Below, in pieces: positions 21,678-42,732 of a stretch of 64,000 nucleotides of DNA. The position numbers were made by a program, and so were the translations under genes. The number at the start of each line of letters is the position of its first letter. Within the stretch, counting starts at the first letter, position 1. The stretch covers positions 2,542,001 through 2,606,000 of the forward strand of contig NZ_NERD01000002.1 in NCBI RefSeq assembly GCF_002799155.1. The letters run 5' to 3'. Under the pieces are notes generated by a model. It ran no database searches. It saw nothing but the letters and a program-made list of their open reading frames with translations, and was not told where the DNA came from. The DNA is from Stenotrophomonas maltophilia (GTDB lineage: Bacteria; Pseudomonadota; Gammaproteobacteria; Xanthomonadales; Xanthomonadaceae).

Positions 21678-22565
21678 ATGAGTCGTTCCTTGCTGCCACC
21701 GCTCAATGCGCTGCGCGCGTTCGAGGCCACCGCCCGCCTGGGCGGGGTTGGCCGTGCCGCGCAGGATCTGCACGTCACCCACGGTGCGGTCAGCCGGCAG
21801 CTGAAGCTGCTGGAAGACCACCTCGGCCTGGCACTGTTCCAGCGTGCCGGCCGCGGCCTGCGCCTGACCGCTGCGGGCACGCGCCTGCAGGCAGCATGCA
21901 GCGAGGCCTTCAGCGGCATCGAAGACTGCGTGCGCGAACTGCGGCGGCCGGCGGCGGCCCCGGCGCTGGTGCTGGGCTGCAGTGGCAGCGTGCTGGCGCG
22001 CTGGATGATTCCGCGCCTGCCCGCGCTGCAGGCCGCCCTGCCCGGCGTACGCCTGCAGTGGTCGGCGCTGGATGGCAGCTTCACCGAGGCGCAGGCCGCA
22101 CTGGATGCGGTGCTGTTGCTGGCGCAGGGGCCATGGCCCCGGGGCTGGCAGGTGCGTGAGCTGGCGCCGGAGCGGGTCGGCGTGGTGGTGGCCCCCTCGC
22201 ATCCGGCGGCGCTGCGCCTGCGGCATGTACCGCCCTCGGCGCTGCTGCAGGAGACGCTGCTGCACACCAGCTCACGGCCGCAGGCGTGGCCGGCGTGGGC
22301 GCAAGCGCACGCTCTGGACACCGCGAAGCTGCAGCTGGGTACCGCCTTCGAGCACCTGTACTACCTGCTGGAAGCCGCAGTGGCCGGGCTGGGCCCGGCG
22401 ATCGCACCCGAGCCGCTGGTGGCCGAGGACCTGGCCGCCGGGCGACTGGTCGCGCCGTGGGGGTTTGCCGCCACCGGTGGTTTCTGGGTGCTGGCGCGAC
22501 CGGACGGACCGGCCGATGCACGCGTGGATGCGCTGGCCGACTGGCTGGGCCAGCAACTCCGCTGA
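21678..22565 (+). CDS. LysR-family regulator, TrpI/GcvA-like
   Basis: A 295-residue LysR-type transcription regulator. The N-terminal winged helix-turn-helix has LNALRAFEATARLGGVGRAA, then HVTHGAVSRQLKLLEDHLG and LFQRAGRGLRLT. The ligand-binding domain follows. The GcvA/TrpI-type helix (THGAVSRQ) and its divergent position next to trpB suggest control of trpBA, as in Pseudomonas. The effector cannot be proven from sequence. Confidence 0.82.
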   Translation: MSRSLLPPLNALRAFEATARLGGVGRAAQDLHVTHGAVSRQLKLLEDHLGLALFQRAGRGLRLTAAGTRLQAACSEAFSGIEDCVRELRRPAAAPALVLGCSGSVLARWMIPRLPALQAALPGVRLQWSALDGSFTEAQAALDAVLLLAQGPWPRGWQVRELAPERVGVVVAPSHPAALRLRHVPPSALLQETLLHTSSRPQAWPAWAQAHALDTAKLQLGTAFEHLYYLLEAAVAGLGPAIAPEPLVAEDLAAGRLVAPWGFAATGGFWVLARPDGPADARVDALADWLGQQLR

Positions 22566-22569
22566 CAGC

Positions 22570-22636
22570 AAAAAGGGGACGGAGGGGATTAAGTCGGAAG
22601 TGGCACAAACGACTTAATTCCCTCCGTCCCCTTTTT
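22570..22636. terminator. Palindromic repeat / bidirectional terminator (copy 1)
   Basis: Arms of 27 bp (22570-22596 and 22610-22636, one G·T pair) around a 13-base loop. Each arm starts AAAAAGGGGACGGAGGG, giving a G+C-rich stem with A/T tracts on both ends. It sits exactly between the LysR stop and the telA stop at 22637, so it can terminate both convergent transcripts. A second copy of the outer stem lies at 42666-42731. Confidence 0.85.
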
Positions 22637-23746
22637 TCAGCTGGCGGTCGGGGTGGCCAGCCGCTGCTGCAGGTCCTCGCGCAGCCGCGACAGTTCCACT
22701 TCGGCCTGCTGCCGCTGCTGCATGCCTTCGCGATGGATGCTGCGCACTTCCTCGACCGTGGCGATCAACTGGTCGTGCACGTGGCGCAGCGTGGCCACGT
22801 CGATCACGCCGCGCTGGTTGCTGCGCGCGGTATCCACCGAGGCCTGGCGCAGCAGGTCGGCATTGCGGCGCATCAGCTCGTTGGTGGCATCGTCGATGGC
22901 GGTGGACAGCTCGACTGCGGCCTTCTGCTCGCCCAGCGAAAGCTGGATGGCGAACTGGCGCTTCCACGACGGGATGGTGATCTCGCGCACCGTGTTGAAC
23001 TTCTCGATCAGCTGCAGCGCGTTGGCCTGGATCAGGCGGATCATCGGTAGTGACTGATCGGCCGCGTGCTGCATCAGCTGCAGGTCGGACACGCGCTTTT
23101 CGATCAGGCGGATCGCGTTGTCGACTTCACCCTGGCGGATGCGCTGCTGCGGATCCTCACTGCCCTGCCCGGCCAGCTGCTCGGCCCGCAGTTCGGCCAG
23201 TCGCTGCTTGCCGGCGGCGGCATACAAGCCGAGCGCATGGCGTTCTTCACGGACGATGTCGTGCATGCGGTCGAACTCGCCCACGCGCTTGCCCATCAGC
23301 GCCTGTTGCACACCGACATCGCCCAGCAACTGCTCGATCTGCGCGTTGGTGTCGCTGAACTTCTGCACCAGCTCGCCCTTGGATACGCGCAGGCGGTCGA
23401 TCAGGCCACCGATCACCGGCACCTTCGACCGCTGGGCGAAGCCGTCCAGCTTCAGGCTGCGCGCGATGCGCACCACTTCGCCCAGTTTCTCGCCGCTGGC
23501 ATCCAGGTCACGATTGCGCACCTGGTCCAGCAACTGGCTGGAAAACGCTGCGGTGCGCGTGGCCGCTTCGCGCCCGAACACCTGCAGGTTGCCCGGGCGC
23601 AGGTCATCCAGCTCCAGACGGATCTCGGCGATGCGCGGCAGATCCTCGCGGACCAGGCCCAGCGCCTGCAGTGCGCCTTCATCAAGCGCAGTGGCGGTGG
23701 TGGTGCCGGGCACGAGGGCACCGGGGGTCTGGCTGTCCTGGGTCAT
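22637..23746 (-). CDS. telA: Toxic anion resistance protein TelA
   Basis: A 369-residue TelA/KlaA-family protein, largely helical. The family block is ITIPSWKRQFAIQLSLGEQK followed by DDATNELMRRNADLL and RGVIDVATLRHVHDQLIAT. The family was named for tellurite resistance, but its biochemical role is unknown. The start is the ATG at 23746, preceded by AAGGAG at a good distance. The open frame extends further upstream but lacks a better signal. It is the last gene of the five-gene cluster, 44 bp after the preceding gene. Confidence 0.9.
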   Translation of the reverse strand: MTQDSQTPGALVPGTTTATALDEGALQALGLVREDLPRIAEIRLELDDLRPGNLQVFGREAATRTAAFSSQLLDQVRNRDLDASGEKLGEVVRIARSLKLDGFAQRSKVPVIGGLIDRLRVSKGELVQKFSDTNAQIEQLLGDVGVQQALMGKRVGEFDRMHDIVREERHALGLYAAAGKQRLAELRAEQLAGQGSEDPQQRIRQGEVDNAIRLIEKRVSDLQLMQHAADQSLPMIRLIQANALQLIEKFNTVREITIPSWKRQFAIQLSLGEQKAAVELSTAIDDATNELMRRNADLLRQASVDTARSNQRGVIDVATLRHVHDQLIATVEEVRSIHREGMQQRQQAEVELSRLREDLQQRLATPTAS

Positions 23747-23790
23747 CGGGCAGTCTCCTTGCAGTTGGGTAAGCGGCAGCGGCGGCCGGC

Positions 23791-24498
23791 TCAAGGCAGT
23801 CTAGCCTGAGCTGCGGCTACCTCGTCATCGATCTGTGCGTGCAGCGAGGCGGCCTTCGCGGCCAGTGTGGCGCCGGCCGCGGCCTGGCCCGCCACGGCGG
23901 CCTGCCGCCAGGCCGGTAACAGGACGTCATGGATGCGCGCGAAGCGTTGCAGCAGCACGGTGTCCTGGTCCTGCAGCAGCTGCCATTGATGGGCTTCCAG
24001 ACGGCGCAGCGAGGCCAGCCGGCGAAGATGATCCAGCCGTTGCGACAGCGCGGCCTGGCCGGCGATATCCAGCGACGTCAGCCGCGCCGCAGCCAGCCCG
24101 ACCCAGTCGTCCAGCGCTGCGGCCGCCGCTGAGTGCTCGGCGATGGCCATGGCCCGCAGCTGCAGGTGCTGCTGCAGGTGCTGGGCCTGCTCACGCGCCT
24201 GCAGGGCCAGCACGCCCAGCTGCGACTGCAGCGCACGCCCTTCCGCCTCGCGATCGACATCGCGCCCCAGCAATCGGCCCCACCAGCTCTCCTGCTGCCG
24301 GATCTGCGCCGGGTTATCGGCCTGCAGGGCCAGCGCGATGCATGCCAGTGCCGCCACCAGGCCTTCGCCCGCGCCCGGCGGCAAAGGTGTTTCGCGCCGC
24401 GCCAGCGCCTGCAGCAACGGCGCACCATAGTCGGCCAGCACGGCGACATCGGCCGTGTCCGGCAAGCTTGGTGGCGGCAGTGGCGCCTGCGTGGTCAC
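23791..24498 (-). CDS. Uncharacterised helical protein of the TelA cluster
   Basis: A 235-residue protein, Ala/Leu/Gln-rich and predicted mostly alpha-helical, with coiled-coil-like stretches (LQLRAMAIAEHSAAAAALDD; LRRLASLRRLEAHQWQLLQD). A short conserved-looking motif WWGRLLGRDVDREAEG lies near residue 72. No signal peptide or membrane segment is seen. It starts with GTG overlapping the stop of the giant ATPase gene (GTGA), so the two are co-translated. I do not recognise the family; position suggests an adaptor between the ATPase and TelA. Confidence 0.75.
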   Translation of the reverse strand: MTTQAPLPPPSLPDTADVAVLADYGAPLLQALARRETPLPPGAGEGLVAALACIALALQADNPAQIRQQESWWGRLLGRDVDREAEGRALQSQLGVLALQAREQAQHLQQHLQLRAMAIAEHSAAAAALDDWVGLAAARLTSLDIAGQAALSQRLDHLRRLASLRRLEAHQWQLLQDQDTVLLQRFARIHDVLLPAWRQAAVAGQAAAGATLAAKAASLHAQIDDEVAAAQARLP

Positions 24499-27400
24499 GG
24501 CAGCGGCGGCGGCTTCGGTGTCGTTGCCGGAATGTCCTCGCTGTCGCCCGGCGGCAACGACTCGCCATAGAAGTGGCGCATCAGGGCTTCATCCAGCGCG
24601 CGCTCCTCCGGCGTCGTGGCACGGCGCACGCGCGCACGCTGCGCCACCACACTGTTCGGCACGCCACGCTCGACCTGCTGCCGCGCCCAGCCGGCGAATG
24701 CGGCCAGGGTCTGCGACACCTGTGCCTGCTGCGCCTGCGATGCCGCCAACAATTCCACCAACGGCGCCAGGCCAGCCTGCAGGTCGTCGGCCAGGACCGT
24801 GGCCGGCACGCTGGGAGCCGCCGCGACCGGCTCCGGCGCGGTGGCTGCGGGACGGGTTTCAGAAAGGCGATGCAAGGCCTCCAGCAACGCCGGCCACGGT
24901 GCCGGGTCGGCAACGGCGATCGCCTCCGGCGCCGGCGGTGGCAGCTGCAGGGCGGTGGCGATGTCGGCCAGCTGCGCAACCACGCGCCCCCCGACATCGC
25001 TGTCGTCGGCACCCATGGCCTTGTTGCGCAGGAAATCGCGCTTGATCTGCGTCCATCGCTGCGCCTGCGTGTCGTCCAGCACGCCGCGCAGTTCGGCCAG
25101 CTTCAACAGGTTTTCTTCGGCGCCGGTGGTCAACAGCTGTGCCTCGCCCAGGTAGTGGTCGGAGATCAACTGCTGCAGCTCGTCCTCGTTCATCACCGGC
25201 GAGATCTTCTCGGCCAGCTTGTTCATGTTGCGGTAGCTGCCCTGGAGCCGGAACGGCGGCTCGGTACGGTAGCGATCGTCCTGCGCGGCACTGGCGATGT
25301 ACTGCTGGTTGACCCGGTAGACCACGTCGCGCACGCGCAGCATGCGCTGCAGTGTGGCGGTGATTTCATTGATTTCCGCGCTGCTGTAGGCGTGGCTGAG
25401 GCCGTTGGTCGAGACTTCCTTGCCCATCGCACGGTCGACCAGCACGTACAGGTCAGCCATGTCACGCGTGGCCAGCGGCGCCAGCACCGGGTTGGACGTC
25501 AGGCTGTTCTCGATGTAGCTGAGGGTAAAGGCCGCCTCCATGCCACCGAGCACATCACCGAGGTTGTAGATGTCGGCACGGTTGGCCAGCATGTCGGGAA
25601 TCTTGAATACTTCGCCGGACTCGGTGTACGGGTTGCCGGCCATCACCACGCAGAACTTCTTGCCGCGCATGTCATAGGTGCGGGTGCGACCACGCCACAC
25701 ACCCTCGATACGGCGGGTACCATCGCACAGCGAGATGAACTTCTGCAGGAATTCAGGATGGGTGTGCTGGATGTCGTCCACATACAGCATGGTGTTGTTG
25801 CCCATCTCCAGCGCCAGGTTGAGCTTCTCCAGTTCCTGCCGCGAGGTCGCGTCCGGTGCCTGTGCCGGGTCCAGCGAGCGCACCTCGTGACCCAGCGCCG
25901 GGCCGTTGATCTTCATGAAGACCAGGCCCAGTCGGTGCGCCACATATTCCATCAGCGTGGTCTTGCCGTAGCCCGGGGGCGAAATCATCATCAGCAGGCC
26001 CATCAGGTCGCTGCGCTTGTTCTCGCCGACCGTGCCCATCTGCTTGGCCAGGTTGTCACCGATCACGCCCAGGTAGACATCATTGATCAGCCTGTTCCGC
26101 ACGAACGAGGACAGCGGCCGCGCCTTGAACTCGGAAAGCCGCAGGGTCTCGCGCTCGCGGCCGATGATGCCCTGTCGCAGTGCCTGGTAGGCATGGAATG
26201 CCGGCACGAAGTCGCGCAGGTGCTGCTGCAGGCGCGTGAGGAAATCATCCAGCGATACCACCAGCGTGCCGTTGCTGATGCGCGCATGTTCACCCAGCAG
26301 GCCACTGACCTCCGCCTGCAACGCGGTGTCGCGGGCACGGGTGCTCAGCTGGCGCTGCACCAGCAGCAGTGCCGCGGCCTCGTCGACGTATCCGGCATGC
26401 AGGGCATGCGCCGGCAGCCGCGCCAGCGCACGCAGCCACTGCCCGGCCAGCGCCCAGCGCGTGGCCAGCGGATCCTGGCTGCGCTGCAGGGCGCGTTCGA
26501 CCGCCTCACGCTGCCCGGCCTGCTCCAGCTGCTGCTGTAGCGCATCCAGCAGCGCCACCGCATGGCGACTGCTGCTGAACACCGGCTCGCCGGTCGCCAG
26601 CTCTTCGCCCAGGTAGGCGGCCGCAGCCTCTGCGGCATCGGCATCGAACGGCAACGCGTGGGATTGCGTGTACGCCAGCAGTGCCTCGGCCATTTCAGCA
26701 CGCAACGCCAGCCGCCCTTCGTCGGACCCCAGCAGGCGTGCCAGCGCTTCGGCACCCATCTGTCGGCCCGGCCATTGCGCCACGGCTTCGCGCCGCTGCT
26801 CGGCAGCCCAGAACAGCAGTGCCAGCGCACGCACCCGCGGTGCATGGCGCAGGCTGCCGGCCGCCTGCTGCAGGGGCAGCAATGCACGCAGTATCAGTGC
26901 GGCATCATGGTCATGGATGCCGCGCTCGTAGCCTTCGCGGTAGCGCGGTGCGGCGAACGCACGCACGCGCTGGTCCAGTGCTTCGGGGGTGGCGGCTTCA
27001 TGCTGCAACGTGGCCAGATCGAGGCCGTCGCTGCCCTCCTGCGCGGCCATCAGCAGGCTGCCGGCCAGATACTCGCCGCGATACAGCGTGGGCGATTCCG
27101 AGTCCAGCGTGACCGGCCAGAACGGCTTCAGTGCATCCAGCTCCGGGTCGTGCAGGGTTTCAAGGAAGTCGGTGCCGGTCAGGTGGATAGCCAGCGTATC
27201 GCCCCGCGGCAGCAGGGTCAGATCCAGCGCCTGGGTGTTGACGCTGAAGCGGTGCCGCGGTCCCAGCCGCACCACGTTGCCGCCCGCTTCGTACAGATCA
27301 CTGCGGTCGCGCAGCTGGCGCACCGCCTGGTCACGCACGCCTTTCAGCCGCGCCTCGATGTCGTCGGCCTTGACGTTGTCATGCAACGCGCGCAGGCGTT

Positions 27401-29885
27401 CGGCCAGCTCACGCAGCTTGAGGATCAGCGGATCGCCGGCGAAGAACGCATTGAGCTCGTCGGCGGTGGCGAAGCGCTCGGTGCGCTTGGCCAGACCATC
27501 GAGAATGCGGTTGGCCGCATCCAGCACCGAACGCGCCTTGCGCTGGCGGTCATCCAGCAGTGCCTGCTTGTGCGTCTCGAAGGCTTCGACCAGCTCTTCG
27601 CGTTTGCTCAGGATGTCGCCGAGGAACTGCTCGTGTTCGCCAAACTGGCTTTCCAGCTCCTCCAACTGCACCAACAGGCGCGAAAGCTGCTCGTCGGCGC
27701 GTTCGGGGTCGGTGGCCAGCGCCAGCGCGCTGGTGATCGACTGCGAGAACAGCGCGAACTGCGCGGCAAACTGCGCCACGGCCTCGGCCGAACCCAGCGA
27801 CCGGCGACGCTGGTCGGCGCGCGCGCGCGCCTGGTTGAGGCGCCCGTACAGCACCGAGATCGACTCGACCACGCGGGTGCGGGCAGTGGCATCGTCCACC
27901 TTCAGGCCGGCCATCAGCTCGGACAGCATGTCCAGGTCTGCCGCCATCCCACGCAGCCCCTCCAGCTGCTCGTCCAGCTGGCGGGCGCTCTGTGCCTGCT
28001 GCGCCGCTTCATCCAGCGCCTGCAGGCGCGTGGCCAGCGGCGCCAGCGCGGCGTCGCCAGCGAGGAAATCACCCGTGGCGGCGCCGACGCGGTCCTGCGC
28101 CTCCACCAGCTCGGCCGTCATCGCCTCGATGCGCGCGGTGTCGATGTAGCGCAGCTCGCGGATGGTCAACAGGCGTCCGCGCAGTGCAGTGATTGCGTTG
28201 AGCGCCTCGACGAAGGCCTGCACCTCGTTCCAGTTCTGCGGCTGCAGCCGGCCCAGCAGCGCCTTGTGCGCGGCCTCTGCCTCGACCATCGCCTGTGCCG
28301 ACTGCTGGCGGATCGACTGCACCTTCTCGTATTCGTCCAGCACCGATTCGCCGGTGGCGCTGATCTGCCGCAGCAGCTCCTCGGCACCATCGCAGGCCGC
28401 GTCGCCCAGCCAGTGGTGGGCATCGAACAGGCGCCGGGTATCAGCTACCAGGCGCTGGTAACGCTGTACCGACACGTCCTGGCCATCGATCTCGCGTGCG
28501 AGGTTGAACAGGTTGGAAATGCCGCGCACCAGTTCGGCGTTGCCGATGCGGCCCATGAAGGTGTTGCCAGGCGGCCGGCTGGCGGCGAATTCGTCACTGC
28601 TGAACGGCGTCTGCCAGACCTGCATCGGATGGATGCGGGTGGGTTCGCTGCCTTCGGCATGGAACAGCACCATGCGCCCGTCCTGCAACAAGGCGTAGCC
28701 ATGGCCGAACACCGGGTTCTGCAATATGCGCTGGATGGTGTTGTAGACGAACAGCGCCGAGCGCCCGCCCTCGCGCTCGTAGAAGATGTACAGCACGTCC
28801 TCGCCGTTCGGCGAACGGATACTGCGCTTGAACTGCATGCCGGCCATCGAGGCGTCGAATGCCTTGTGCTCGCCGCCCTGCAGGTAGTAGCCGCCCGGGA
28901 AAATCACGCCGTGGTCTTCGGGCAGCTGCACGCAGGCCTGCACGATCGCATCGTTGCGCACGATGCCGCCGGTCAGCGTGTTGTAGATCAGGCCGCGCCA
29001 TTCCGTCTCCCGGTAGGGCAGCACCTTCAGCAGGACCAGCGAACCAACCCGTGCGAATTCGAACTGGGCGTCGTCCAGCGACTGCGTACTGTCCTCCACC
29101 GGTTCGCTGTAGATGCCCTGCCCGGTTTCGGTGTTGTTCTCGACCTTGATGGTGAGGTCGCCGCCAGTGGTCTCCACGAACAGGGTGTCGAGGATGTTCA
29201 GGTGCGAATGGCGGCCATTGACCGCCAGGTCGCGGGTGGCCCTTGTCCATTCGAAGTCGAACGGCGGCGGCAGTGCGATATCGCGCTCGCCGCGCGCGTC
29301 CAGATAGGTCAGTTCGCCATCGCGCGCCAGCGCCCAGCGGAACACGCGCACGTCGCTGCTGCGCTCGCCGATCTGGAACGAGGCCAGCAGCTTGTCGCCC
29401 ACCACGATCAGCTGCAGCAGGCGTGCGTGCTTGTAGTAGGCGTACAGCTCGTTGAAGTCGTGCACGAAGCCGGGCTGGTCGAGGAAGCTGCCCTTCAGCT
29501 CCAGCGCGGCGACGTCGTAGCCGTCGCTGCCCTGCACCAGCCGGTACAGGCCGAACACATCCTCGATACGGGTCTGGGTCTTCAGCCCGATGAACACGTT
29601 GTAGCCGAACAGCAGGCGGTCCGGCCCGACCTGCACGATGTCGCGGCCGACGCAGTTGTTTTCGCTGCGGATGCGGAAGCGCCCGACCACCTCCAGGCGG
29701 CTGTCACCGAACTCGGCCAGGCGCTGGCGGTTGAGCGTTTCGGCCAGGCCCTGCAGGCGCTGGCCCTGCTCGGCCAGGCGGCGGCGCAGGACTTCGTAGG
29801 CGCCGCCCTGGGCAACGGCCTGGTCGACGGTATTGCCGCCGGCCTCGGGTGCAGTGGATTCGGCGGACGGATGGGTATCAGACAT
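24495..29885 (-). CDS. Giant AAA ATPase (DUF3686-like, 1796 aa)
   Basis: An unusually long protein. Residues about 40-500 look like a beta-rich domain (FRIRSENNCVGRDIVQVGPD; FYEREGGRSALFVYNTIQRI) that I recall as DUF3686, found in ATPases annotated as DNA-repair proteins. Residues about 520-950 are rich in coiled coil. The AAA module lies near the C terminus: Walker A SPPGYGKTTLMEYVAHRLG near residue 1305, Walker B TMLYVDDIQHTHPEF near 1365, then a MoxR-like sensor segment VVMAGNPYTESGEVFKIPDM. There is no membrane segment, so it should be cytoplasmic. The partners are the flotillin-like and TelA genes. The DNA-repair label is not supported by anything visible here. Function unknown; a remodelling motor is the best inference. 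Confidence 0.85.
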   Translation of the reverse strand: MSDTHPSAESTAPEAGGNTVDQAVAQGGAYEVLRRRLAEQGQRLQGLAETLNRQRLAEFGDSRLEVVGRFRIRSENNCVGRDIVQVGPDRLLFGYNVFIGLKTQTRIEDVFGLYRLVQGSDGYDVAALELKGSFLDQPGFVHDFNELYAYYKHARLLQLIVVGDKLLASFQIGERSSDVRVFRWALARDGELTYLDARGERDIALPPPFDFEWTRATRDLAVNGRHSHLNILDTLFVETTGGDLTIKVENNTETGQGIYSEPVEDSTQSLDDAQFEFARVGSLVLLKVLPYRETEWRGLIYNTLTGGIVRNDAIVQACVQLPEDHGVIFPGGYYLQGGEHKAFDASMAGMQFKRSIRSPNGEDVLYIFYEREGGRSALFVYNTIQRILQNPVFGHGYALLQDGRMVLFHAEGSEPTRIHPMQVWQTPFSSDEFAASRPPGNTFMGRIGNAELVRGISNLFNLAREIDGQDVSVQRYQRLVADTRRLFDAHHWLGDAACDGAEELLRQISATGESVLDEYEKVQSIRQQSAQAMVEAEAAHKALLGRLQPQNWNEVQAFVEALNAITALRGRLLTIRELRYIDTARIEAMTAELVEAQDRVGAATGDFLAGDAALAPLATRLQALDEAAQQAQSARQLDEQLEGLRGMAADLDMLSELMAGLKVDDATARTRVVESISVLYGRLNQARARADQRRRSLGSAEAVAQFAAQFALFSQSITSALALATDPERADEQLSRLLVQLEELESQFGEHEQFLGDILSKREELVEAFETHKQALLDDRQRKARSVLDAANRILDGLAKRTERFATADELNAFFAGDPLILKLRELAERLRALHDNVKADDIEARLKGVRDQAVRQLRDRSDLYEAGGNVVRLGPRHRFSVNTQALDLTLLPRGDTLAIHLTGTDFLETLHDPELDALKPFWPVTLDSESPTLYRGEYLAGSLLMAAQEGSDGLDLATLQHEAATPEALDQRVRAFAAPRYREGYERGIHDHDAALILRALLPLQQAAGSLRHAPRVRALALLFWAAEQRREAVAQWPGRQMGAEALARLLGSDEGRLALRAEMAEALLAYTQSHALPFDADAAEAAAAYLGEELATGEPVFSSSRHAVALLDALQQQLEQAGQREAVERALQRSQDPLATRWALAGQWLRALARLPAHALHAGYVDEAAALLLVQRQLSTRARDTALQAEVSGLLGEHARISNGTLVVSLDDFLTRLQQHLRDFVPAFHAYQALRQGIIGRERETLRLSEFKARPLSSFVRNRLINDVYLGVIGDNLAKQMGTVGENKRSDLMGLLMMISPPGYGKTTLMEYVAHRLGLVFMKINGPALGHEVRSLDPAQAPDATSRQELEKLNLALEMGNNTMLYVDDIQHTHPEFLQKFISLCDGTRRIEGVWRGRTRTYDMRGKKFCVVMAGNPYTESGEVFKIPDMLANRADIYNLGDVLGGMEAAFTLSYIENSLTSNPVLAPLATRDMADLYVLVDRAMGKEVSTNGLSHAYSSAEINEITATLQRMLRVRDVVYRVNQQYIASAAQDDRYRTEPPFRLQGSYRNMNKLAEKISPVMNEDELQQLISDHYLGEAQLLTTGAEENLLKLAELRGVLDDTQAQRWTQIKRDFLRNKAMGADDSDVGGRVVAQLADIATALQLPPPAPEAIAVADPAPWPALLEALHRLSETRPAATAPEPVAAAPSVPATVLADDLQAGLAPLVELLAASQAQQAQVSQTLAAFAGWARQQVERGVPNSVVAQRARVRRATTPEERALDEALMRHFYGESLPPGDSEDIPATTPKPPPLP

Positions 29886-29936
29886 CAGCAGGCTTCCGGC
29901 TCACGGGCAGACGGCCGCGGTTGCGGCCGGCGCGGG

Positions 29937-29965
29937 CGGGCGATGGCCGCAGCAGCCATCGCCCG
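29937..29965. repeat. Intercistronic hairpin in the yqiK-ATPase gap
   Basis: Within the 85-bp gap between the flotillin-like gene and the giant ATPase gene, CGGGCGATGG (29937-29946) pairs with CCATCGCCCG (29956-29965). There is no T-run. It may stabilise or attenuate the message between the membrane-protein part and the ATPase part of the operon. Confidence 0.55.
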
Positions 29966-29970
29966 ATGCA

Positions 29971-31989
29971 TCAACGGGCGCTGTCGACCACGGTGGCCGA
30001 CACGGTCGGCACCGCTTCGGCATCCTCGGCGATCTGGCGCGGTGCCGGTTCGGCCACGGCCACGCCCAGGTAGCGCTGCATCAGCTCCTGCACGATCGGG
30101 CTCTTGCCGGCGAAGCCTTCGATCGACTTGCCCAGCGACACCGCCTTGACCAGGTTCTCGAACATGCCGCCGTCGCCACCGACCAGGTCGATGTCGGCGT
30201 TGCGCAGCGCGCTGGCGATGACATTGGCGTTCTCGCGCGAGACTTCCTTGCCGGCCTCGATCGAGGCCAGCGCCTGCTTCAGGCTGTTGTCCAGCATCAT
30301 GCGGAACTCTTCGTGGCCACGTGCCTGGTCGCTCAGCGAGGCAATGGCTTCGAACTTGCGCACCAGGCCTTCAGCCTCGGCCAGCAGCTTCTTCTGCACC
30401 ACGCCCGCTTCTGCGTTGCCCAGCGATTCGGTGGCGGTGGCACGGGCCAGGCCCATCTTCTCTTCGCCCTGTGCCTGCGCCTGCAGGGTCTCGGCCAGTA
30501 CGCGGGCCTCGTTGCTGCCTTGCTTCAGGCTGGCTTCGGCCTTGGCTTCGATCACGCGGGCCTCGGCAATGCCGACCTTCTCGATGGCCAGCGCCGAGGC
30601 TTCACGCACCTGCGCTTCGGCCAGGCCCGGCGCAGCCTGCTCGGCACGCAGCGCATCGGCCAGCAGGCGCTTGGCTTCGGCCTGCTTGCCGGCCGCTTCG
30701 TGCTCGGCCTGGGCCAGCGTGGTCAGTTCCACCGCGCGGTGCTTGGAGGCGGTCTCGCGCGCCTGCGCTTCCTTCACCTCGCGCACCAGCGCTTCCTGCG
30801 CCTTGGCTTCGGCTTCCAGGATCAGCACCTGCTTCTGGCGGTCTGCCTCGGAAACCTCGCGCACTTCCTTGATGCGCTCTTCTTCCTGCGCCACGGTCTT
30901 GTCGATGGAGATGCGTTCGCGGGTGATGTTGGCCACGTCCATCTTGCCCTGCTCGACCACCTTGTCGCGCTCCACGCCCTGCAGCTGCACTTCGCGGTCG
31001 GTGGTGACCTGCTCCAGCTGGCGTGCGCGCTCCACGCGCTCGGCCTCGATGGCCACGGCACGCTGGCGGTTCTGCTCGGCCACTTCCACTTCGCGCAGGC
31101 GGTTCTGGTCGCGGATCTCGATCAGCTGCTGTGCTTCGATGCGGGCATTCTCGGACAGCTGGCGCTGCTCTTCCTGCACCTTGGCGGTCTCGGCCTCCTC
31201 GCGCGCGCGGATGGTCTCGATCTCGCGCTTCTGGCGTGCTTCGGCTTCGGCCTGCTGGCGTTCCAGCGCCAGCAGCGCTTCGCGCGCTTCCACGTTTTTC
31301 TTGGTGATGGCGAGCTTCTCGTTCTGCTCCAGCTCGTTGGTCACCACGTTCTGCGCGGCGGTCAGCTCGGTGATCTTGCGGATGCCCTGCGCGTCGAGGA
31401 TGTTGAACTGGTCCAGCAGCGACTTCGGGGTCTGCTCCAGGTAATCGATCGCCACGTCTTCCAGCACGTAGCCATTGAGGTCATTGCCGATCACCGCGAT
31501 GATCTCGTCGCGGAACTCCTGGCGCTTCTCGAACAGTTCGGTGAAGTCGAACTTCTTGCCGACCGTCTTCAGCGCTTCGGAGAACTTGGCGTTGAACAGC
31601 TCGTCGACGGCATGCTTGTCCGATGCACGGTCGGCACCGATGGCCTTGGCCACGCGCAGCACGTCGGCCTGGGTCTCGTTCACCCGCAGGTAGAAGGCCA
31701 CGGCAATGTCGGCACGCATGTTGTCGCGGCAGATCAGGCCTTCCTTGCCGCGGCGGTCGATCTGCAGGGTGATCAGGCTGATCCGCATCAGCTCGGCGCG
31801 GTACAGCACCGGGATGATCAGCGCACCGGTGAAGTGCACCTTGGGCGTGGAGCTCATGTCGTTGACGATCAGGGCCACGCCCTGGTCGACCTTGCGGTAG
31901 AAGGCCTTGAACAGCCCGGCCACGCCCAGCAACAGGACGAGCAGGCCGCCGGCGACGGCCAGGATCGGTAAGAGGGATGCCAACGTCAT
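29971..31989 (-). CDS. yqiK: YqiK-like flotillin / SPFH-domain protein
   Basis: A 672-residue membrane scaffold protein. One N-terminal membrane helix (ILAVAGGLLVLLLGVAGLFK, residues 9-28) is followed by an SPFH/PHB domain (GVALIVNDMSSTPKVHFTGA to about residue 210). A long charged heptad-rich coiled coil (about 210-500; RAREEAETAKVQEEQRQLSE) and a C-terminal flotillin region end it. Such proteins oligomerise into membrane microdomains. E. coli YqiK is shorter (about 553 residues). It overlaps the upstream YqiJ-like gene by 4 bp, and yqiJ-yqiK pairing is known. Confidence 0.9.
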   Translation of the reverse strand: MTLASLLPILAVAGGLLVLLLGVAGLFKAFYRKVDQGVALIVNDMSSTPKVHFTGALIIPVLYRAELMRISLITLQIDRRGKEGLICRDNMRADIAVAFYLRVNETQADVLRVAKAIGADRASDKHAVDELFNAKFSEALKTVGKKFDFTELFEKRQEFRDEIIAVIGNDLNGYVLEDVAIDYLEQTPKSLLDQFNILDAQGIRKITELTAAQNVVTNELEQNEKLAITKKNVEAREALLALERQQAEAEARQKREIETIRAREEAETAKVQEEQRQLSENARIEAQQLIEIRDQNRLREVEVAEQNRQRAVAIEAERVERARQLEQVTTDREVQLQGVERDKVVEQGKMDVANITRERISIDKTVAQEEERIKEVREVSEADRQKQVLILEAEAKAQEALVREVKEAQARETASKHRAVELTTLAQAEHEAAGKQAEAKRLLADALRAEQAAPGLAEAQVREASALAIEKVGIAEARVIEAKAEASLKQGSNEARVLAETLQAQAQGEEKMGLARATATESLGNAEAGVVQKKLLAEAEGLVRKFEAIASLSDQARGHEEFRMMLDNSLKQALASIEAGKEVSRENANVIASALRNADIDLVGGDGGMFENLVKAVSLGKSIEGFAGKSPIVQELMQRYLGVAVAEPAPRQIAEDAEAVPTVSATVVDSAR

Positions 31990-32660
31990 TGATGATTCTC
32001 CTTGTTGCCCGGAAGCAGGTTGTCCTGGAAATCAAGGGCGATCGCATCGGCGCGGACCACCCGGTAATAGTGTTGCTCGGCCATGTGCTCGACCAGCACG
32101 ATGCGCTCGCCACGCTGCAGTTCGATGTCGCTGCGGATCTGCAGCACCAGCCCGGCACCGCCATCATCGACAGTGGCATGACCGCTGCGTGCGTCCACTT
32201 TCGGCGATGCGACCACGCCGATCCGGCCCAGCAGCGATGCCTGCGGCACCGGCCGCAGGCGCAGCAGGAAGCGCCGGACCGGGCGCAGGATCAGCGCGGT
32301 AAGAGGTACCGCAGGCAGCGGTGCCAGCACCGCCACGAGCGTACCCAGGCCCCAGCGCAGCAGGTCCGGCAGCGGCAGCAATGCGAACAGGTGGATGAAA
32401 TAGGTGATGAGCCAGCCGAACAGGCCCAGCAGGGTGACCACCACCATGATCGGGACGCCGCCCAGGCCCCAGCGCGCCAGCATGGCCGACAGGCCACTGA
32501 GGTCGGTCCCCGCCTCGAGTCCGCCATCGGCGCCGAGATTGCCGAAACCGTCATCGACCAGGCCGAACGCCGCAACTGCCCAATACATCACCGACACCAA
32601 CAGCAGAATGCTGTACGGCAGCGTCGGGTAACCGAGCACGACGGTGAGAAACTCCTGCAT
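31986..32660 (-). CDS. yqiJ: YqiJ-like membrane protein with OB-fold domain
   Basis: A 224-residue inner-membrane protein. Membrane segments are visible at about residues 8-30 (YSILLLVSVMYWAVAAFGLV), 62-85 (PIMVVVTLLGLFGWLITYF) and 95-120. A soluble C-terminal beta domain (LGRIGVVASPKVDARSG; RGERIVLVEHMAEQHYY) resembles the OB fold of YqiJ/NfeD proteins. I use the ATG at 32660, with AGGAAGG just upstream; the longer frame has no support. It is the first gene of the cluster and overlaps yqiK by ATGA. Confidence 0.82.
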   Translation of the reverse strand: MQEFLTVVLGYPTLPYSILLLVSVMYWAVAAFGLVDDGFGNLGADGGLEAGTDLSGLSAMLARWGLGGVPIMVVVTLLGLFGWLITYFIHLFALLPLPDLLRWGLGTLVAVLAPLPAVPLTALILRPVRRFLLRLRPVPQASLLGRIGVVASPKVDARSGHATVDDGGAGLVLQIRSDIELQRGERIVLVEHMAEQHYYRVVRADAIALDFQDNLLPGNKENHQ

Positions 32661-32763
32661 CGCTTGCCTTCCTGGGCTATGGGCGGCGGCCGCCCGTTCG
32701 GGGCGCGCCGTGCGCGTCCCGTCGATCCCCACGCCAGCCTTCGTGGCAGGCGTGCTTGGGACC

Positions 32764-32793
32764 ATCCTATGTGAAGAATGCGTGCAGGCTCAA
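32764..32793 (-). promoter_or_regulatory. Possible promoter of the yqiJ-telA cluster
   Basis: On the minus strand TTGAGC (32788-32793) and TAGGAT (32764-32769) are separated by 18 bases, about 100 bp upstream of the YqiJ-like start. It is the only sigma-70-like pair in the trpF-yqiJ gap (32661-32828). Experimental support is lacking. Confidence 0.35.
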
Positions 32794-32828
32794 ATCCGGG
32801 CGCTGATCAGGGTAAATAGTGACGCGAA

Positions 32829-33485
32829 TCACTCGAGAACCGTGCAATCGGCGCGGCGTACTTCCTCGACGAAGGTGCGCATCTTGTAGCCGTCCTTGAT
32901 GCCCGGCTCCAGTTCGATGCCGCTGGAGACATCCACGCCCCACGGCAGGGTGGCCAACACCGCGTCGTAGACGTTTTCCGGGTTCAGCCCGCCAGCCAGC
33001 AGGAACGGGCGATGCAGGCCGGTCGGGATCCGGCCCCAGTCGAAGGCCACGCCGGTACCGCCGCCGCCGCCCGGCGCATGGCTGTCGAACAGGAAGCCGG
33101 CGGCGCTGGGATAGCGCAGCTGCAGGGTGCGCGCGTTGATCTCTTCACGCCCGCCCATGGCGATCGCCTTCAGGTAGGGCATGTTGAAGCTGCGGCAGAA
33201 GCTCTCGTCTTCCTCGCCGTGGAACTGCAGCAGGGTCGGCCTTACCGTGCGCAGTACCTCGCGCACCTCTTCCTTGCTGTTGTTGCGGAACAACGCCACC
33301 ACGTCGACCATCGGCGCGATCGCCTGGCGCATCGCGCGTGCCTCGGCGGGGGCGACCCGGCGGCTGCTTTCACGGGCAAAGATGAAACCCACCGCGTCCA
33401 CACCCAGTTCACCGGCCAGGCGGACGTCGCCGGCCCGGGTCATGCCACAGAACTTGATGCGTGTGCGGTAGTAGGAGCGGCTCAT
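32829..33485 (-). CDS. trpF: Phosphoribosylanthranilate isomerase
   Basis: Third-step enzyme (PRAI) of tryptophan synthesis, 218 residues. [20 protein letters not shown] carries the catalytic Cys. [11 protein letters not shown] and [16 protein letters not shown], then [14 protein letters not shown] and [16 protein letters not shown] complete the pattern. The start ATG at 33485 overlaps the truA stop (ATGA), so the genes are coupled. In related genomes trpF often precedes trpB; here the next gene is yqiJ. Confidence 0.96.
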
Positions 33486-42664: not shown

Positions 42665-42732
42665 CAAAAAGGGGACGGAGGGGATCAAGTCGTTCATGCA
42701 TGAACGACTTGATCCCCTCCGTCCCCTTTTTG
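42665..42732. terminator. 68-bp perfect palindrome / bidirectional terminator (copy 2)
   Basis: Arms of 34 bp (42665-42698 and 42699-42732) are perfectly complementary with no unpaired loop. The outer stem CAAAAAGGGGACGGAGGGG matches that of the copy at 22570. The inner stem (AAGTCG...CGACTT) shares the same frame but has a different centre. It fits exactly between the psd and rraB stops, ending both convergent genes. Confidence 0.85.

Follow-up and report, generated by a model that had tools for sequence, protein, structure and literature searches.

The minus strand of a 64-kb window from Stenotrophomonas maltophilia (NZ_NERD01000002.1, positions 2,542,001 to 2,606,000; "the window" means this whole stretch of 64,000 nucleotides) carries five genes for a YqiJ-like protein, a YqiK-like protein, a giant ATPase, a 235-aa helical protein and TelA. 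They form a derivative of the phage-shock-type operon YjfI-PspA-YqiJ-YqiK-ATPase(-PLD; phospholipase D). The core of this operon is already known; new is the version bearing KlaA and KlaB. TelA is the KlaB homologue and the 235-aa protein is, judged by its family profile, a KlaA homologue and a shortened TelA paralogue. The KlaA-KlaB pair lies behind the ATPase, mostly with overlapping frames, in a single clade of ATPases with no sampled row lacking it. It is a later insertion, seen solely in part of the Lysobacteraceae and in one unclassified Pseudomonadota metagenome-assembled genome that groups with them. PspA is strongly diverged in this clade and missing in its Stenotrophomonas/Xanthomonas branch.

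Arrangement of the operon

The open reading frames (ORFs) confirmed the layout described in an earlier sequence-only reading of the window, with 4-bp overlaps at the YqiJ/YqiK and ATPase/235-aa junctions and gaps of 85 bp (YqiK/ATPase) and 44 bp (235-aa/TelA). When the start codon nearest to the expected place was taken, the 4-nt overlap of ATPase and 235-aa frames was possible in 29 of the 33 TelA-bearing loci, window included; in three more the overlap is 8-11 nt, and the start of the last could not be resolved. All 23 close TelA copies from 247 genomes of the family are on the strand of the ATPase, and their start coordinates lie 5.5-6.1 kb from the DUF3686 match. The arrangement of the five genes is beyond chance, and the earlier claim of one conserved operon of membrane scaffold, motor and TelA was borne out.

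The YqiJ-like frame is open from 32765, and the ATG that aligns with its relatives is at 32663. A relative found with phmmer adjoins YqiK in 74 of 80 ATPase loci, several of the others being cut by contig ends. A simple hydropathy scan gave several hydrophobic segments for this protein, a single N-terminal one (residues 1-31) for the YqiK-like protein, one borderline stretch for the 235-aa protein and none for the ATPase and TelA. The name YqiJ-like is based on position and on PMC11237479 and PMC2636767. In NCBIfam the YqiK-like protein matched FloT weakly, with an E-value of 0.006 that is far below cut-off, and its relatives are annotated as SPFH/flotillin proteins. No Pfam match above cut-off was obtained for the YqiJ-like, YqiK-like and 235-aa proteins. 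The TelA frame can be extended to a TTG at 23794.

Identity of TelA and the 235-aa protein

TelA matched PF05816 with an E-value of 2.8e-71 and 240.8 bits against a gathering cut-off of 30. Its best-placed plasmid match among the matches listed was klaB of pUZ8002 (46% identity over 98%). Of 794 plasmid records, 40 were listed by the search, and klaA precedes klaB in the five that were read; klaA is annotated there as toxic anion resistance (three), tellurite resistance (one) or hypothetical (one).

Considered by itself, the 235-residue protein, described as helical in the sequence-only reading, could not be assigned convincingly to a family. Direct tblastn with the window protein on the plasmids gave no match, and the link to KlaA therefore needs this profile. 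A hidden Markov model (HMM) of the family, whose sequences were taken starting from the ATPase stop codon, gave 63-101 bits on the five plasmid KlaA proteins, and the best of 1010 controls gave 8.8. The two families were aligned by hhalign over 213 columns (E 1.2e-17). With the KlaA HMM, 28 of the 33 family members scored above the best of 693 controls; with the TelA profile, 13 of 33 exceeded every one of 693 shuffled or reversed controls. The window protein did not match PF05816, for which three of 14 family members gave weak matches (best E 0.0019), and KlaA of pUZ8002 passed its gathering score with 41 bits. The window protein also matched phrog_5890 (tellurite resistance, E 6e-4). For 14 members 16 Pfam families were listed, and PF10112, which we take to be the XpaC family, was not one of them; on this Pfam result XpaC was set aside as an identity. 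The relation to TelA was seen between families as well, with hhalign E-values of 4e-4 for the 235-aa and TelA families and 3.9e-9 for KlaA and KlaB. The latter agrees with PMC5696584, where KlaA and KlaB are reported as homologous and KlaABC as the fertility-inhibition system FiwB.

The adjacent KlaA and KlaB, which agree in order and are similar in length, liken the window to the kilA/kla operon of RK2-type and other plasmids, which is associated with FiwB and tellurite. It differs in that the window pair is joined to a chromosomal flotillin/ATPase operon and that no KlaC was found: KlaC of pUZ8002, which contains a TrbC/VirB2-like segment, had no match in six family genomes in a search without positive control. 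A LysR gene comes after TelA in the window.

TelA was above cut-off in 58 of 349 Pseudomonadota genomes, the window's own included. Nine TelA loci outside the family were read; a separate KlaA was beside TelA in one, and the DUF3686 ATPase or YqiK was nearby in none. The one locus (L191, G166:C2:26128-27923) is on a contig of 53 kb that is probably a plasmid and agrees in type with the E. coli plasmid P3 (L190); on this contig klaA-klaB are accompanied by a 296-aa ORF at the position of klaC. TelA homologues also occur in 88 phage records from several hosts; the PHROGs family phrog_5890 is listed under tellurite resistance. In one genus, ORFs of about 246-275 aa outside the operon (L101:3530-4357, L040, L044, L046, L051, L043) gave weak KlaA-like scores and were not counted; they may be paralogues, merely similar coils or ORFs in a wrong frame. 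L101:3530-4357 matched no Pfam family.

The names TelA and KlaB and the cited plasmid phenotype would suit a simple tellurite-resistance operon. We consider this very unlikely, given the search for KlaC, the Pfam matches of the five operon proteins, which include no Ter or reductase family, and the many ATPase loci without TelA (see below). Disruption of a Listeria TelA gene, as cited in PMC12791056, raised sensitivity to nisin 4-fold and to tellurite 2-fold, the nisin effect thus being the larger one.

Relation to the published operon

The operon described in PMC11237479 is of phage-shock type and typically reads YjfI(DUF2170)-PspA-YqiJ-YqiK-AAA+ ATPase(-phospholipase D); shortened forms that lack PspA are also noted in that paper. 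The words TelA and DUF3686 are absent from its main text. The window shares with it the order of YqiJ, flotillin and a homologous propeller/coiled-coil AAA+ ATPase, the propeller being taken from that paper, and differs in the missing PspA, in having no YjfI or PLD gene beside the operon and in the KlaA-KlaB pair behind the ATPase. PF04012 (PspA) had no match in the whole genome of the window. YjfI, a CesT/Tir protein, was sought at the locus only, where TrpF and TruA lie upstream of YqiJ instead, and not genome-wide. As abbreviated operons are allowed for in PMC11237479, the missing PspA marks a variant. The sequence-only reading knew of no published function for this combination and did not foresee that the YqiJ-YqiK-ATPase core is in print with PspA (PMC11237479). 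Among the matches listed, no paper joined TelA/Kla with flotillin/SPFH/PspA or with Stenotrophomonas, and the literature search on DUF3686 returned no paper.

DUF3686 was present in 8 of 398 Pseudomonadota genomes, the window's own included, and in 57 of the 247 family genomes; phylum and family samples were even draws, not all genomes. Related loci were scanned as the best 80 of at least 567 ATPase loci, several of them cut by contig ends. The published order was usual among these. PspA and YjfI were each found by phmmer in 47 of the 80 (L165 has both on the other strand), a PLD-domain gene was present in 26, mostly behind the ATPase, and TelA was missing from 67. The linkage of TelA proposed in the sequence-only reading held within the family, with TelA adjacent to the ATPase in 23 of the 27 genomes that have it, and failed outside it; beyond the TelA clade the common partner is PspA. 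Some named loci (L097-L176) are the same records as numbered genomes (L101 = G421, L112 = G486), so that the rows are not all independent.

Plasmids carry related gene sets. On a Hymenobacter plasmid, genes for a Tir-type chaperone and PspA are directly followed by those for a DUF1449 protein, a hypothetical protein and the ATPase, and pQBR103 has PspA, SPFH and ATPase genes within one stretch. A rhomboid-protease gene adjoins PspA on pQBR103 (L203:484-1038, annotated) and the ATPase-PLD pair at L105:14241-14786, where its identity was guessed from sequence. In the fetched stretch of four Lysobacteraceae loci (L087, L090, L091, L095), YqiJ-YqiK-ATPase stand without PspA or TelA.

Probable single capture of KlaA-KlaB and divergence of PspA

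In a FastTree phylogeny of 63 hand-chosen ATPases, six of odd composition, the 33 TelA-bearing rows formed one clade nested among PspA-bearing rows (SH-like local support 100, the only support calculated; one change). One capture of KlaAB therefore suffices. Four loci without an ATPase (L040, L044, L046, L051), two with a partial or split one (L043, L085) and most non-Lysobacteraceae loci were left out of this tree. The operon KlaB also formed one clade (support 98/100, 13 of 27 rows), next to plasmid KlaB. TelA was above cut-off in 27 of the 247 family genomes, all with DUF3686. The four genomes with TelA elsewhere have a more distant TelA, and none of the three fetched matched the KlaB profile; TelA of the operon type was seen solely beside the ATPase. 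A 28th match, below cut-off, was in a genome without DUF3686.

The PspA profile PF04012 gave 25-77 bits in 20 of the 23 genomes with adjacent TelA (four of them below cut-off) and no match in the other three, namely the window's genome, G586 and G515. The 34 DUF3686 genomes without adjacent TelA gave 129-185 bits in 27 cases, 36-53 bits in six and no match in one. At an ATPase identity of 66-72%, PspA identity was 35.2% in TelA-bearing pairs (43 pairs) and 65.7% in the others (78 pairs), all from 29 hand-chosen loci whose pairs are not independent; it was also lower in the ATPase bins of 58-66, 72-80 and 80-90%. The divergence of PspA in the TelA clade is about twice that in sister operons. 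The window belongs to a branch of 13 rows in which no PspA was found, with seven genomes searched whole and the others by their fetched flanks. Three further TelA loci (L052, L053, L102) had no PspA in the fetched stretch, which is cut short upstream. Lysobacter xinjiangensis (L101) has all eight genes, YjfI, a diverged PspA, YqiJ, YqiK, ATPase, KlaA, KlaB and PLD, the last matched inside a longer ORF. The window is thereby marked as a stripped end state.

The ATPase

The 1796-aa ATPase matched DUF3686 (residues 44-491, E 1.5e-193), DUF7902 (613-696, E 5e-25) and AAA_5 (E 3.7e-7), and both AAA_5 and AAA were above the Pfam cut-off. The motifs that we take to be Walker A (1303), Walker B (1367), sensor 1 (GNP, 1415) and the arginine finger (NRAD, 1435) have key residues that are invariant across eight aligned sequences, window included. 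Eighteen of the 1796 positions are constant within the TelA clade and not so in 23 hand-chosen TelA-minus rows; four of them are at 1642-1647, behind the AAA+ module, and one is inside it. As these are changes of one branch, they are only a hint that residues 1642-1647 may be a contact site.

Relatives of the ATPase are annotated as DNA-repair proteins, as is DUF3686 in its Pfam description, and weak RuvB-type P-loop matches were obtained (Pfam E 0.0025, NCBIfam E 9e-4, far below cut-off). The RuvB match spans just about 45 residues around the P-loop, however, and neither Pfam nor NCBIfam matched any DNA-binding, nuclease or helicase domain beyond the P-loop in the five operon proteins. In Pseudomonadota and Bacteroidota the ATPase has PspA/flotillin-type genes as neighbours, and in Streptomyces a flotillin gene. 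A function in DNA repair is highly improbable, and the earlier doubt about this label was justified. Membrane protection rather than DNA work is indicated by the partner set of flotillin and YqiJ and, in relatives, PspA and PLD.

Proposed function

The operon may tentatively be read as a phage-shock/flotillin-type inner-membrane stress machine with an exchanged membrane-coat module, an interpretation that we hold with somewhat less than even confidence. We infer that KlaA-KlaB would have taken over, or would share, the job of PspA as membrane-associated client of a flotillin-anchored motor. YqiJ and YqiK would form a membrane platform to which the cytosolic ATPase is recruited. KlaA and KlaB, presumably soluble long-helix proteins of one family, would polymerise or bind at a damaged or invaded membrane in the former place of PspA, and the motor would load or strip them through ATP hydrolysis. 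This might shield the membrane from oxyanions and peptides, or from the machinery of incoming conjugation or phages. The ATPase itself would be built of a beta-propeller (after PMC11237479), coiled arms and a single AAA+ module and presumably act as a hexamer.

Parts of this scheme have counterparts in B. subtilis. An SPFH protein is needed there to bring PspA, called an ESCRT-III homologue, to the membrane (PMC8581546). Flotillin, PspA and TelA-type genes are also co-regulated in this organism. We take YceH of B. subtilis to be a TelA protein. Sigma-W controls pspA-ydjGHI, yuaF-floT, xpaC-yaaN and the yceC-yceH operon (PMC3498285). Unlike in the window, these are separate operons, and the passages of PMC3498285 on them name no DUF3686 ATPase; the KlaA-like proteins had no XpaC match in Pfam. 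The nisin and tellurite sensitivity of the Listeria TelA mutant, cited in PMC12791056, fits the scheme as well.

Several observations weigh against an exchange of PspA for KlaAB. A PspA-like gene is kept in 20 of the 23 TelA-adjacent family genomes and in 17 of 32 fetched TelA loci, so PspA and KlaAB usually coexist. PspA was absent in four of 44 searched genomes with a TelA-free ATPase operon (L166, L167, L168, L172) and from the fetched stretch, in some cases cut short, of 32 of 91 TelA-minus loci; its loss thus needs no TelA. YqiK identity was lower in the TelA clade too (mean 75.1% versus 82.6%) in the same hand-chosen comparison. KlaA and KlaB showed no profile similarity to PspA in hhalign (E 0.21 and 0.16), and descent of the 235-aa protein from a PspA-type coat was rejected. 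A Foldseek search of the KlaA and TelA models against the PDB found nothing at E<1e-3.

KlaAB might instead be an addition, namely an extra envelope-protection module against toxic oxyanions and cationic peptides that shares the promoter, with PspA decaying for lineage reasons. This is possible, although we consider it rather unlikely. The coexistence of both genes and the loss of PspA in some TelA-free lineages speak for it, as do the klaAB genes without a DUF3686 ATPase on the five plasmids read and the pairing of the TelA-type yaaN with xpaC in B. subtilis (PMC3498285). It is opposed by the 33 clade rows, none of which lacks KlaAB, by the KlaA frame mostly overlapping the ATPase stop, by the restriction of operon-type TelA to the side of the ATPase and by a PspA that is far more diverged throughout the TelA clade. 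We favour the stress machine with an exchanged coat, at the strength given above.

Structural comparison

The AlphaFold2 model of the 235-aa protein had a mean confidence score (pLDDT) of 89.8 with helices at 94-137 and 145-232; the TelA model had long helices and a pLDDT of 72.8. In VIA, the 235-aa model was aligned to Vipp1 (8qfv) with Z 8.3 and a root-mean-square deviation (rmsd) of 6.8 over 165 residues and to CHMP1B/IST1 (6tz4) with Z 7.5 and rmsd 9.6 over 130 residues, both within the helical background. The VIA rows of TelA were led by a subunit of an alpha-pore-forming toxin (Z 11.5), together with coiled coils; these rows are below the helical background of about 13 and were not read as kinship. 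No PspA or Vipp1 chain was among the 50 VIA rows for TelA. With no significant fold match and a second look that stayed within the helical background, the models do not decide for or against an ESCRT-III-like fold.

The stress machine proposed here would share with ESCRT-III/Vps4 the hypothetical principle of an AAA+ motor that remodels a membrane-bound helical coat; no link of KlaAB to ESCRT-III came from profiles or folds. A bolder and doubtful proposal is that the TelA-type proteins KlaA and KlaB represent another class of AAA+-driven membrane coat, one that would have evolved independently and functionally displaced PspA, an ESCRT-III protein, from the operon to which it belongs.

Chromosomal site

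The operon is flanked by trpF on one side and, on the other, by a LysR gene beside trpB (Table 1). Translations placed it likewise after the truA/trpF stretch in S. humi (L104), Xanthomonas chitinilytica (L099) and X. bonasiae (L154). The ATPase was found in two of 13 genomes of the genus. Nine of the 11 genomes without it were read; the edges are 46-58 bp apart in three and about 190 bp in one, in another (L177) they are separated by 556 bp that hold the remains of a further gene, and one was unresolved. The remaining three have a 2.8-3.0-kb cassette in place of the operon (L178:3478-6385, L185:3576-6405, L184:2210-5174). It codes for a 618-aa protein, which was tested on L178 and there matched NlpC/P60 and peptidoglycan-binding families, and for a lipoprotein-like partner of 229-253 aa. 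By its sequence the cassette looks like an antibacterial effector/immunity pair, presumably linked to type IV secretion. With empty or otherwise filled sites in sister genomes, the operon is an accessory segment at a variable site.

Such a position would suit a barrier to incoming plasmids and phages, where the machine, like plasmid KlaABC (FiwB, IncW fertility inhibition), blocks transfer machinery at the membrane. The composition of FiwB from KlaA, KlaB and KlaC (PMC5696584) and the phage records with TelA homologues also point in this direction. FiwB needs KlaC, however, which the search described above did not find, and PADLOC returned only weak coil or P-loop matches (LmuB, E 0.0025; mad8, E 0.13). 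We consider such a barrier unlikely.

The gap between trpF and YqiJ did not match the sigma-70 consensus in a scan, and Rfam reported nothing but one tRNA in the window. The palindromic repeat behind TelA has the arms GGGGACGGAGGGRATTAAGTCG and a second window copy at 42671-42726. It had 99 matches in the genome with at most one mismatch (50 forward, 49 reverse), and the reversed-pattern control had none. Occurring mostly as inverted pairs, with about 50 copies of the element in the genome, it is a family like the repetitive extragenic palindromic (REP) elements.

Table 1. Coordinates of the operon genes and flanking features in the window.
Feature	Position	Strand	Remarks
YqiJ-like (NfeD2/YuaF type) membrane protein	31986..32663	-	225 aa from conserved ATG
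YqiK-like SPFH/flotillin protein	29971..31989	-	672 aa
Giant ATPase	24495..29885	-	1796 aa; DUF3686, DUF7902, AAA+ module
235-aa helical protein, KlaA homologue and shortened TelA paralogue by profile	23791..24498	-	family HMM, hhalign
TelA, KlaB homologue	22637..23746	-	369 aa from ATG; PF05816
trpF-YqiJ gap, possible promoter region	32664..32828	-	165 bp; block conserved in five S. maltophilia-type loci (alignment)
Accessory segment between LysR/trpB and trpF	22545..32830	.	edges 46-58 bp apart in 3/9 sister genomes
Palindromic repeat directly after TelA stop, possible terminator	22570..22636	.	arms ~27 nt

Implications

The mechanism of TelA/KlaA is described in passages of the literature as unknown or partly understood. 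KlaAB behind a flotillin-associated motor and with a decaying PspA offers a testable handle on TelA function, and the identification of KlaA gives the orphan 235-aa protein a name. TelA as a motor-handled membrane coat is a guess that would tie plasmid fertility inhibition to envelope stress. If KlaA/KlaB were indeed a second class of AAA+-driven coat, the tellurite, bacteriocin and conjugation phenotypes linked to TelA would be one membrane-sealing activity. The branch of the window, including S. maltophilia-type strains, would have a PspA-free phage-shock response.

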